A stretch of 64,000 nt of DNA from Proteocatella sphenisci DSM 23131 (lineage in GTDB: Bacteria; Bacillota; Clostridia; Peptostreptococcales; Filifactoraceae): contig NZ_AUID01000001.1 in NCBI RefSeq assembly GCF_000423525.1, positions 62,001-126,000 of the forward strand, written 5' to 3'. The notes beneath the pieces were generated by a model that saw nothing but the letters and a program-made list of their open reading frames with translations, did not search any database and had not been told where the DNA came from. The position numbers were made by a program, and so were the translations under genes. The stretch's first letter is position 1, and each line of letters begins with the position of its first letter. Below, in pieces: positions 14,156 through 16,919 of the stretch.

Positions 14156-14482
14156 ATGAGCATAAACATAAGTGCAGAAGCTCTAAATGAGCTTAAGAGC
14201 ATTCTTAGTGATAAGCAGCTTGATGGAAATATAGTACGTGTATTCGTATCTGGTATGGGCTGAAGCGGTCCTCAATTCAACTTATCTCTGGATGAGATAA
14301 ACGATGATGATTTTTCATTAGTAGCTGATAATTTTACTTTCGTTGTTGAAAAAGAACTTGTCGATCAATTCGGCGGTTTTGAAATCAAATTTTTCGATGA
14401 GGACGGAGCATCTGGCGTTTACGTTGAAACAAGTGTTCAGCCTGAAAGCGGTTGTTCTGGATGTAGCGGAAGCTGTAGCTAA
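14156..14482 (+). CDS. IscA/HesB-like selenoprotein with Cys-rich tail (in-frame TGA = Sec36)
   Basis: A 108-codon frame runs from an ATG behind TTAGGAGAA to a TAA at 14480, with one internal TGA at 14261-14263 (codon 36). Read through as selenocysteine, the product has an IscA/HesB-type fold signature: a start INISAEALNELK, then VFVSGMG-U-SGPQFNLSLDE. This aligns with the SGCSGMAY region of IscA, so U36 replaces the first cluster-binding Cys. The tail CSGCSGSC supplies three more thiols, where IscA has CGC. The reading frame after the TGA keeps family character up to the stop, and a SECIS-like hairpin follows the TGA. HesB-like selenoproteins are known from selenium-using anaerobes; the role is unproven, with Fe-S or metal handling or redox possible. 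A gene caller would miss or split it. Confidence 0.9.
14282..14300 (+). promoter_or_regulatory. bacterial SECIS-like hairpin of the first selenoprotein gene
   Basis: TTATCTC (14282-14288) pairs perfectly with GAGATAA (14294-14300) around the 5-nt loop TGGAT. The loop begins 26 nt after the TGA and has G at its second position. These features fit the bacterial SECIS rules, in which the hairpin lies inside the coding region just 3' of UGA and is recognised by SelB. Confidence 0.75.
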
Positions 14483-14526: not shown

Positions 14527-15927
14527 CTATTTATTTGTAAATTCAATGTTTAAAATTTTTCTTGGATCAAATTTTGATACTGAATCATCACGGTCTTTAT
14601 TGGATTCACTTGGAGTATAGCCTTTTAGAATCCATTTTTCCGAATTACTGTAATAGGCTCTTATGCTTTCAAGAAATGATTGATATGAAATCCCATCTGG
14701 CAGTATATAGTTCATTCCCAGCATATTTAAAATAAAGCTTGGCTCAAATTCTATTTTCGAAAATGTAAAAATCATATTTTTCAACTCTTCTTTTTGTACT
14801 TCTGAAATCTTATTGTGAGATTCTATTATCTCTAGAATTCTTGATAAAGCCAGACTTTCTTCATAATAAAAACTATCTCCTCTGTGGTACAATTCTTCAA
14901 TATCATATTCTTTATAACTGGTTATAGATTCATTTTGTATATCAATTAAATTTTGGATAACACCAACGAGTCCATGATGAACATACTCTCCAGCCATAAC
15001 AATATTAGAATAAATCTTCTTGTCTAAAATAGATTTCGGGAATGAAAATTCACAAAGTTTTTTGAGATGATTTTTGAATTGAGCTCTATCCATTATATTA
15101 GTTATTTGCTCGCTGATTAACGAGTATACTTTTTCTTCAAGTAAGTCAAATGGTATTATTCCATAAGAATTTACATATCCAATTGTCAGTTTTATTAGCT
15201 TAGTATTCAAGTCGTTATATTTATTTATATCATTAAAATTCAGTTTTTCCACAGCCACCATGACTTCTTGCGGTATTATAAGATAATTTATATTATTACT
15301 TTTAACCCTTGAAATAAGGCATCTAGATACAAAAAAATCAATTTTCAATTCTTCTGTCTCTTTTAGAATTTTATCAAATTCCATCATGCCTTCATGATAA
15401 ATAACCTGACCCAAGTAAGACAGATCTTCTTTACTTATGAGTCTTAATACCTCATTCAGATATTCAACCATATGTGGTTTTATAAAATCAATAGTTTCAT
15501 TTTTACTTAACCTCTGTGGCAAACCTAAATCTAGGAATGAAGCAATTTCTTTCAAGAATTCTATAGGGTATAAATTCTCAAATTTGTATGGTTTATGAAA
15601 ACTTATCCACTGCCCAAATGCCCTGTGAGACATCTGCTGCTGTCTATACTTCTTTTCCATTGATTTTACTTCTTTAGACAGATCCCCTATATTTTCAAGA
15701 TTTAAATTATTAAGATCAAGTTTATCTAAAAGATCTTTCATTTCTTTGCTTTCCATAGATTTACTAAGCGTTTCAATCATATCTTTATCAAGTTCCACAC
15801 CCATATTTCCTAGTATTTCTTTGAATTTATCTGTATTCTGATTATTGTTTGATTTAGGTTCTGTATTTGAATCTTTTGTTTTGTTCTTAATTTCATTAAA
15901 ATTTATTACCTTGTTCTTTTCATCCAT
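14527..15927 (-). CDS. hypothetical protein, function unknown (466 aa)
   Basis: I do not recognise this protein. Residues 1-110 are rich in Asn, Lys, Asp and Glu and look flexible or helical. They hold short hydrophobic-patterned repeats such as LDKLDLNNLNLENIGDL. From about residue 120 the chain becomes a globular, mainly alpha-helical domain with aromatic clusters (QWISFHKPYKFENLYP, EYVHHGLVGVIQNLI, YHRGDSFYYEESLAL, FEPSFILNMLGMNYILPDGISYQSF). No signal peptide, membrane segment, P-loop or metal-binding Cys cluster is seen. The start overlaps the ogt stop by 8 nt and has GGAGG 9 nt upstream, so it is cotranscribed with ogt. It sits between two selenoprotein genes on the opposite strand. Codon use resembles its neighbours. 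Confidence 0.85.
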   Translation of the reverse strand: MDEKNKVINFNEIKNKTKDSNTEPKSNNNQNTDKFKEILGNMGVELDKDMIETLSKSMESKEMKDLLDKLDLNNLNLENIGDLSKEVKSMEKKYRQQQMSHRAFGQWISFHKPYKFENLYPIEFLKEIASFLDLGLPQRLSKNETIDFIKPHMVEYLNEVLRLISKEDLSYLGQVIYHEGMMEFDKILKETEELKIDFFVSRCLISRVKSNNINYLIIPQEVMVAVEKLNFNDINKYNDLNTKLIKLTIGYVNSYGIIPFDLLEEKVYSLISEQITNIMDRAQFKNHLKKLCEFSFPKSILDKKIYSNIVMAGEYVHHGLVGVIQNLIDIQNESITSYKEYDIEELYHRGDSFYYEESLALSRILEIIESHNKISEVQKEELKNMIFTFSKIEFEPSFILNMLGMNYILPDGISYQSFLESIRAYYSNSEKWILKGYTPSESNKDRDDSVSKFDPRKILNIEFTNK

Positions 15928-16560: not shown

Positions 16561-16585
16561 TATAAAAAACAAAGGAGAGATAAAC

Positions 16586-16861
16586 ATGAAAATAAATTTA
16601 AGCGAAAGTGCAAAACTCAAGATGCAAGAGTACTTTAAAAATGAAGTTCCATTGAGGTTAATAGTTCAAGGCGTGTCCTGATGTGGTCCTACATTTGCGG
16701 TTGTTTCGGCGAAACACCTTGTTGAAGATAAGTTATATAAAGAAGACGGAATAGAGCTGGCAATAGCAGAAAATGTTATCAGTTTACTTTCAGAAGTGAA
16801 AATAGATCATTCAAACAAATTTTTCAGAAAAGGCTTTATTGTAATGCCTATCCCTAAATAA
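16586..16861 (+). CDS. short IscA/HesB-like selenoprotein (in-frame TGA = Sec32)
   Basis: A 91-codon frame starts at an ATG behind AAAGGAGAG and ends at TAA 16859-16861, interrupted only by TGA at 16679-16681 (codon 32). The product starts MKINLSESAKLKMQEYF and continues RLIVQGVS-U-CGPTFAVV. The U lies where IscA proteins have the conserved Cys of SGCSGM, giving a Sec-Cys pair. Unlike true IscA, and unlike its neighbour at 14156, it has no C-terminal Cys pair; it ends FRKGFIVMPIPK. A hairpin with a bulged U follows the TGA. HesB-like selenoproteins are a known group, but this short tail-less form is less familiar. Function is unknown; a thiol/selenol redox or metal-binding role is inferred only from the U-C pair. 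Confidence 0.9.
16699..16718 (+). promoter_or_regulatory. bacterial SECIS-like hairpin of the second selenoprotein gene
   Basis: GGT, a bulged T, then GTTTC pairs with GAAAC-ACC around loop GGC (16708-16710). The loop starts 27 nt after the TGA and opens with two Gs. The bulged U below the apical stem recalls the essential bulged U of the E. coli fdhF SECIS. Confidence 0.8.
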
Positions 16862-16869
16862 GCACTTTT

Positions 16870-16904
16870 AAAAAGAGCTTCATTTTTTAAATGAAGCTCT
16901 TTTT
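16870..16904. terminator. bidirectional hairpin terminator
   Basis: A perfect 14-bp stem (AAAAAGAGCTTCAT / ATGAAGCTCTTTTT) with a 7-nt loop lies between the convergent selenoprotein and pepV genes. Confidence 0.85.
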
Positions 16905-16919
16905 AAGCTTTTTATATTA

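Follow-up and report, generated by a model that had tools for sequence, protein, structure and literature searches.

HesB-like proteins have long been listed among the selenoprotein families (in the relevant parts of PMC1794560 and PMC13188914), and a passage of PMC11097638 calls the function of the HesB-like selenoproteins not clear. For the RNA signal that accompanies selenocysteine (Sec) codons, the section of PMC13188914 on the bSECIS model gives an apical loop of 3-9 nt with a G in its first two positions, an upper stem of 4-16 bp, a loop placed 16-37 nt after the UGA, and a minimum free energy (MFE) of -7.5 kcal/mol or lower.

We have analysed a HesB-like gene (the target) in a window, i.e., the whole stretch of DNA studied, of 64,000 nt from Proteocatella sphenisci DSM 23131 (contig NZ_AUID01000001.1, positions 62,001 to 126,000). 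Three HesB-like ORFs were found in this genome, and the target is the second of those in the window (Table 1). The sequence-only reading had described its frame as 91 codons with one TGA at codon 32 giving VS-U-CGPTF, and this is what the DNA encodes: MKINLSES...LIVQGVSUCGPTFAVVSAKH...FRKGFIVMPIPK, with the C-terminus FIVMPIPK and no Cys near it. The target gene is isolated: its two neighbours, which encode an O6-methylguanine-DNA methyltransferase and an M20 peptidase, lie on the opposite strand and are functionally unrelated to it. There is no second HesB-like frame directly beside it, no metal-resistance genes were seen beside it, and an Rfam search of the window gave no match. The terminator-like hairpin that follows the gene (one found, against a mean of 0.1 in shuffled sequences) suggests that the target transcript contains no further gene.

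Table 1. Features of the target gene and of the other HesB-like genes in the same genome (window coordinates unless a contig is named).
Feature	Position	Strand	Remarks
HesB-like selenoprotein CDS, tail-less	16586..16861	+	91 codons plus TAA, single in-frame TGA
TGA codon 32 (Sec32), IscA first-Cys position	16679..16681	+	Sec/Cys-only column in homologues
TGT (Cys33), sole cysteine of the protein, abuts Sec32	16682..16684	+	read from sequence; conserved in the branch
GGAG, Shine-Dalgarno-like, 8 bases 5' of ATG	16574..16577	+	read directly
SECIS-like hairpin GGTTGTTTCGGCGAAACACC, loop GGC	16699..16718	+	starts 17 nt after UGA, loop 26 nt after
Terminator-like hairpin 3' of the gene	16867..16907	+	hairpin search against shuffles
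First HesB-like selenoprotein of the window	14156..14482	+	GMGUSGPQF; TGA 14261-14263; C-terminal GCSGCSGSCS
Third HesB-like selenoprotein	G000:C3:147980-148255 (L298:5481-5807)		KSUVGPRI, no Cys

The curated models place the target in the family at scores below their cut-offs: PF01521 gives 21.4 bits (cut-off 26.3), NF038090 (IscA_HesB_Se) 41.1 bits (cut-off 85), and TIGR01911 (HesB_rel_seleno) 33.8 bits (cut-off 66.35). The curated HesB models also stay below cut-off for the orthologues L281 and L258. At E values up to 1e-3, NF038090 matches all 13 members of the branch alignment A2 (best 2.1e-13), in which the 12 other rows have UCGA or USGA in place of UxGP. An AlphaFold2 model of the target (25 sequences; mean pLDDT 91.5), in which Sec is modelled as Cys and which cannot show Sec chemistry, resembles SufA (Z 11.1, rmsd 2.5 over 87 residues; Foldseek E 2.1e-6), IscA 1r94 (Z 9.9, rmsd 3.0 over 90 residues), and DsrR (2k4z; Z 9.9, rmsd 2.8 over 90 residues), the last being among the closest folds. 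According to this model, the target is a protein of the IscA/SufA (A-type carrier) fold. Strands are predicted at residues 23-31 and 34-41, which leaves just two residues to connect them, and therefore Sec32-Cys33 would form a two-residue beta-hairpin turn. The structure prediction that the sequence-only reading had proposed for judging the site thus returns an IscA/SufA fold with the pair at a turn.

In alignments to IscA-type proteins, Sec32 occupies the place of the first cluster Cys, as the sequence-only reading had stated, and the Sec column is invariant in the 26 rows of alignment A1. The profile of A1, which consists mostly of ordinary members, aligns their terminal Cys with a tail Cys of solved IscA-type proteins, which we take to be the one that opens the C-G-C motif. 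Both tail cysteines of the IscA-type proteins are missing from the target, so the loss of the C-terminal cysteines that had been claimed for it is real. With Sec in place of the first Cys and both tail cysteines gone, the usual three-cysteine holding of an Fe-S cluster should be impossible.

The source genome encodes a complete Sec machinery. The tRNA-Sec (70 bits), SelB (387.6 bits), SelA (586.8 bits), and SelD (385.9 bits) are all over their cut-offs, and the SelD gene itself contains one TGA. To place the TGA of the target among its homologues, the target was searched against 391 genomes of its class, and a family profile against overlapping sets of genomes from the order (393), the phylum (398), and a second order (199), the class set overlapping as well. 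From a subset of the best matches listed, 264 non-redundant ORFs were tabulated, counted with frames cut at a second in-frame TGA; 263 of them have at least 70 aa. The truncated first frame of L175 (<70 aa) and a partial frame of L276 that stops short of the Sec column were dropped. The rows L208-L276 were picked partly for short-looking matches, and tail-less forms are therefore over-represented in the totals. Among the 263 ORFs, the Sec-site column contains 244 Sec, 19 Cys, and nothing else, and homology to the target is present on both sides of its TGA. A TGA standing opposite variable residues, the outcome named beforehand as speaking against Sec, is thus absent from the tabulated rows, and the comparison with Cys homologues suggested at the same time yields 19 Cys forms, three of which (L244-L246) have Cys-Cys at the site.

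The hairpin downstream of the UGA (GGT-T-GTTTC-GGC-GAAAC-ACC; 8 bp with one bulge) agrees with the bSECIS model of PMC13188914 in loop, stem, and spacing. When 45 nt from the UGA are folded, the hairpin is contained in the MFE structure, with -8.8 kcal/mol as against -4.8 kcal/mol when the hairpin is taken by itself, and windows of at least 50 nt from the target fold into another structure. The MFE of the target RNA is no better than that of shuffled sequences (z values of +0.46 and +0.32 for stretches of 62 and 39 nt, respectively), and therefore the folding of the target alone is no proof of a SECIS element; conservation is. A synonymous-shuffle test gives p 0.049 for the target hairpin, which is weak for one gene, and mean z values of 1.43 in the 244 Sec genes versus 0.06 in the 19 Cys genes, which are suggestive for the family.

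The segment TTGTTTCGGNGAARCA downstream of the UGA is conserved in every one of the 23 aligned branch genes, i.e., the target, 14 Sec-Cys orthologues, 7 tandem paralogues, and one Sec-Gly copy (L282, a near-copy of L281, and the decayed L291 were left out). Between the target and the 14 orthologues, the residues shared inside this segment use the same codon in 42 out of 42 cases, against 215 out of 380 elsewhere in the gene. Ser41 is encoded by TCG in 15/15 genes, a codon that accounts for 2 of the 73 other Ser codons in the same genes and for 13 of the 232 Ser codons in seven window genes. The hairpin is nearly invariant (five of its eight pairs never vary, one cell is changed on both sides, and its percentage of pairing was reached by 48 out of 500 shuffles), and the argument is therefore one of codon-level conservation, not of covariation. 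A 3-bp helix with compensatory changes was found upstream of the hairpin by RNAalifold. Since TTGTTTCGGNGAARCA is kept in 23/23 genes down to the codons, Sec insertion at codon 32 is, as far as sequence can tell, nearly certain. The VSxKQ motif seen in the proteins of the branch probably follows from the RNA hairpin, because the RNA bases and codons beneath it are kept. If the motif is invariant through the RNA beneath, as is probable, caution is needed when reading conservation in short selenoproteins. The sequence-only reading had pointed to the bulged U of the hairpin, a feature known to matter in E. coli fdhF. The hairpin and its bulge are there (the bulged T is 16701 or 16702), but the bulge belongs to the target only, being found in 1 of the 23 genes, and the other 22 pair bulge-free; as the telling SECIS feature it is not supported.

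A contig scan with the target alone gave no close relatives. With the branch alignment, a scan of 84,980 species, each represented by a single genome, gave 17 loci, seven from Sedimentibacter and ten from Clostridiales, Firmicutes, Tissierellia, or Bacillota bacteria. Fifteen of these loci encode Sec-Cys, one Sec-Gly (L292), and one is decayed, so that the adjacent Cys noticed in the target is a trait of a branch and not a one-off. The decayed copy (L291:3978-4175), read by eye, has TAA at the Sec site and an N-terminal part that is unrecognisable. The scan loci overlap those fetched from the numbered genomes, and the two sets are therefore not independent. Among the tabulated proteins, the Sec-Cys pair is present in 16, under three genus labels (g1, g193, g635). 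Besides the scan loci, two genomes of another family (L033, L237) have it. The Cys-Cys forms come from three f37-family genomes in which SelA is still encoded, and thus have Cys at the Sec site despite a Sec system. A match in a viral sequence (L001) was discarded as a chance CCGPTF reading, since its DNA and listed frames show no HesB-like protein.

A 140-row tree places the target among proteins of the f238 (Sedimentibacter) type with support 99/82, on a long branch (1.05), and 13 of the 14 orthologues of the f238 group on the tree have an equivalent of Cys33, the exception being L260 with Ser. The same tree gives weak support (93/43) to a larger set of 34 rows without tail Cys. A search with the target in 11 genomes of its own family found Sec-Cys in the target only, the other two matches being of the KSUVGP type. 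Because Sec-Cys is confined to the target among these 11 genomes, its gene may have been acquired from elsewhere.

The neighbourhoods of the orthologues are richer than that of the target. In 8/17 scan loci (L277, L278, L280-L283, L287, and L288; e.g., L281:5001-5559), a second Sec paralogue (PVGU followed by S, A, or N) lies about 10 nt downstream of the Sec-Cys gene. These tandem genes have the same SECIS-like hairpin, and the eight tabulated PVGU paralogues contain no Cys. As the Cys-free paralogues of the PVGU and KSUVGP types retain Sec, the Sec-Cys pair must be dispensable for some functions of the family. An ATPase Walker motif is present upstream in 13/17 loci and a TM1266-like motif in 10/17, some loci ending at contig edges; L285 and L290 have neither. 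In Sedimentibacter saalensis (L281), a family search assigned the Walker motif to an SsuA/NMT1-type ABC transporter and the other motif to a TM1266-like regulator. Membership of this cluster in the Sao system was considered and rejected, since SaoP (100.6 bits, cut-off 295) and SaoA (142.7 bits, cut-off 360) score far under their cut-offs.

The third HesB-like gene of the source genome adjoins genes for an ABC transporter that most resembles taurine systems, a PF04143 sulfur-transport protein, a CoA-disulfide-reductase-like/rhodanese protein, and a LysR regulator closest to the selenium-associated NF040786, names that, Pfam matches aside, rest on scores under the NCBIfam cut-offs. Similar frames surround KSUVGP-type genes in G1264 and G010, including a genome of the same genus, as judged by eye from the ORF list. 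The first HesB-like protein of the window scores 66.5 bits with TIGR01911, just above the cut-off of 66.35, and belongs to a separate branch with a Cys-rich tail; among its closest relatives, from the same family (f1), the site is Sec or, depending on the genome, Cys (MGCSGP, MACHGP). Between both HesB-like genes, the frame 14527-15927 on the minus strand (about 465 aa) has no Pfam or NCBIfam match at E values up to 1e-3. Sulfur or soft-metal handling is a recurrent theme of these neighbourhoods; the target itself stands alone.

The tail Cys is absent from all 16 tabulated Sec-Cys proteins and from all three Cys-Cys proteins. Among the other Sec proteins, 191/228 have a tail Cys, always within the last three residues. 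Across all 244 Sec proteins, 213 have Gly, Ser, or Ala after the Sec. In an earlier sample (the window and L002-L207), the tail Cys was missing from 2/2 Sec-Cys proteins and from 9/169 other Sec proteins (Fisher p 0.0038); the rows in all these counts are related by descent. On the tree, the Sec-Cys label requires four changes and the label of the other tail-less proteins 13. We do not claim a shift of the resolving Cys out of the tail into the position after Sec, since the rows are related and the tail was lost elsewhere without a Cys after Sec: 20 other tail-less rows outside the 34-row set have none there. The pair thus characterises a single part of the tree and does not reflect a general rule of replacement.

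Other arrangements were noticed in passing. L239 and L240 (family f37) have Cys directly before Sec (SACUSG, IGCUSG), the reverse of the order in the target, and L240 also has a TCCHGS frame. Two or three adjacent HesB-like ORFs, some without tail Cys, are found in L255 (G1203:C41), L263, L266, and L269.

We consider that the target probably carries out selenium-sulfur chemistry of a local kind and does not deliver iron-sulfur clusters in the ordinary way. The more specific proposal, that this selenoprotein works as a small local selenol-thiol switch, is the likeliest mechanism, and we regard it as evenly balanced between right and wrong. The UGA at codon 32 is almost certainly decoded as Sec by the SelA, SelB, SelD, and tRNA-Sec of the genome, aided by the hairpin 17 nt downstream. 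Sec32 would then attack an oxidised or sulfane-sulfur substrate, Cys33, replacing the tail Cys of ordinary members, would close an eight-membered Sec-Cys selenenylsulfide, and a cellular reductant would reopen it; the redox cycle, with its substrate and reductant steps, is our inference. Two vicinal residues at a turn are able to form an eight-membered ring, as in thioredoxin reductase. In the model, the placement of the pair at a two-residue turn permits a selenenylsulfide, the example of redox chemistry given in the sequence-only reading, and soft-metal or persulfide binding fits it too. The isolated position of the target gene, the Sec paralogues that have no Cys, and the other tail-less lineages with no Cys after Sec all count against the switch. 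It is also disfavoured to some extent because the SsuA/NMT1-type transporters near many orthologues suit metal or sulfur handling equally.

This last point leads to a different use of the same two residues, in which Sec32 and Cys33 clamp a soft metal or organometal such as Cu(I), Hg(II), or As(III), so that the protein would serve as chaperone or sink and not as an oxidoreductase. Several selenoproteins with adjacent Sec and Cys, i.e., the CopZ family with GxUC and CU and SaoC, SaoL, MbdU, and HgcA with CU, are listed as metal- or organometal-related in a table of the 2026 review PMC13188914, where Sao-named transporters are also said to carry Sec in some cases, and the upstream Walker motif and the transporter of S. 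saalensis would suit such a role. However, that transporter is far from the Sao models, no metal-resistance gene was seen beside the target, and the context of the target is unlike that of its orthologues, so that we hold metal binding, the main rival of the switch, to be possible but unlikely.

A broader and rather doubtful idea is that the Sec-Cys subunit and the Cys-free Sec paralogue form a two-protein selenium-sulfur relay of IscA fold beside the SsuA/NMT1-type transporter, of which the target and the third HesB-like protein would be a dispersed form. If true, the two proteins would jointly handle some compound of sulfur, selenium, or a soft metal that the cell imports.

A role as iron or Fe-S carrier, in which Sec and Cys from the two subunits of a homodimer or of a heterodimer, for instance one with the tandem PVGU paralogue, ligate iron or a [2Fe-2S] cluster, appears improbable to us. 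The IscA/SufA fold, the Sec at the first cluster-Cys position, and the second Sec gene about 10 nt downstream in 8/17 loci are what such a carrier would lead one to expect. However, both tail cysteines, essential for Fe-S cluster binding according to a passage of PMC7144353, are absent, the target has no HesB-like frame directly adjoining, and a Methanococcus maripaludis disruption mutant of the HesB-like selenoprotein fixes nitrogen unimpaired (unpublished, quoted in a passage of PMC11097638). It is still less credible that the target is a non-catalytic regulator or adaptor of IscA fold like DsrR, with Sec merely as a sensor residue: DsrR is among the closest folds (Z 9.9) and a terminator-like hairpin ends the transcript after the target, but Sec and its RNA signal are kept in 23/23 branch genes, pointing to a chemical role at Sec. 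Finally, the view that no selenoprotein exists here and that the TGA is simply a normal stop codon or a nonsense mutation, as might be argued from a downstream RNA no more stable than its shuffles and from family models all scoring under cut-off, is practically discounted by the Sec/Cys-only column in 263 tabulated ORFs, the codon-level conservation of the hairpin, the complete Sec machinery, and the homology on either side of the TGA.

Thus, HesB-like selenoproteins are known, and what is new here is the tail-less Sec-Cys branch, its tandem partner, and the RNA-imposed motif, none of which is mentioned in the literature searched. A branch that lacks the cluster cysteines yet has Sec, its RNA signal, and an adjacent Cys separates Sec chemistry from Fe-S scaffolding, and therefore the function of the family becomes directly testable on one 91-residue protein.

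Regarding known systems, mammalian thioredoxin reductase has adjacent Cys and Sec in its C-terminal GCUG that form a selenenylsulfide. Compared with the target, the order there is reversed, the pair is C-terminal, and the fold is unrelated. DsrR (2k4z) shares with the target the match to the IscA fold. It is cysteine-poor, lacks the usual cluster cysteines, and has no Sec, and its context is unlike that of the target. IscA, SufA, and ErpA (PF01521) share the fold and the order of its elements, whereas the target has Sec for the first Cys, no tail Cys pair, and an extra Cys beside Sec. Adjacent Sec and Cys as in the target are found in form 1 (GxUC) of the CopZ-family (2Fe-2S)-binding proteins and in the CU of Sao, Hgc, and MbdU proteins, as listed in that table of PMC13188914, but these are other families, mostly with the order Cys-Sec. 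Closest are the HesB-like selenoproteins themselves, with the same domain, the same place of Sec, and a SECIS-type hairpin after it, the UCGP of the target fitting the UxGP given for them in PMC13188914 in the part concerned; the target differs from them in scoring about half of the curated cut-offs, in having no C-terminal Cys, and in having a Cys right after Sec.
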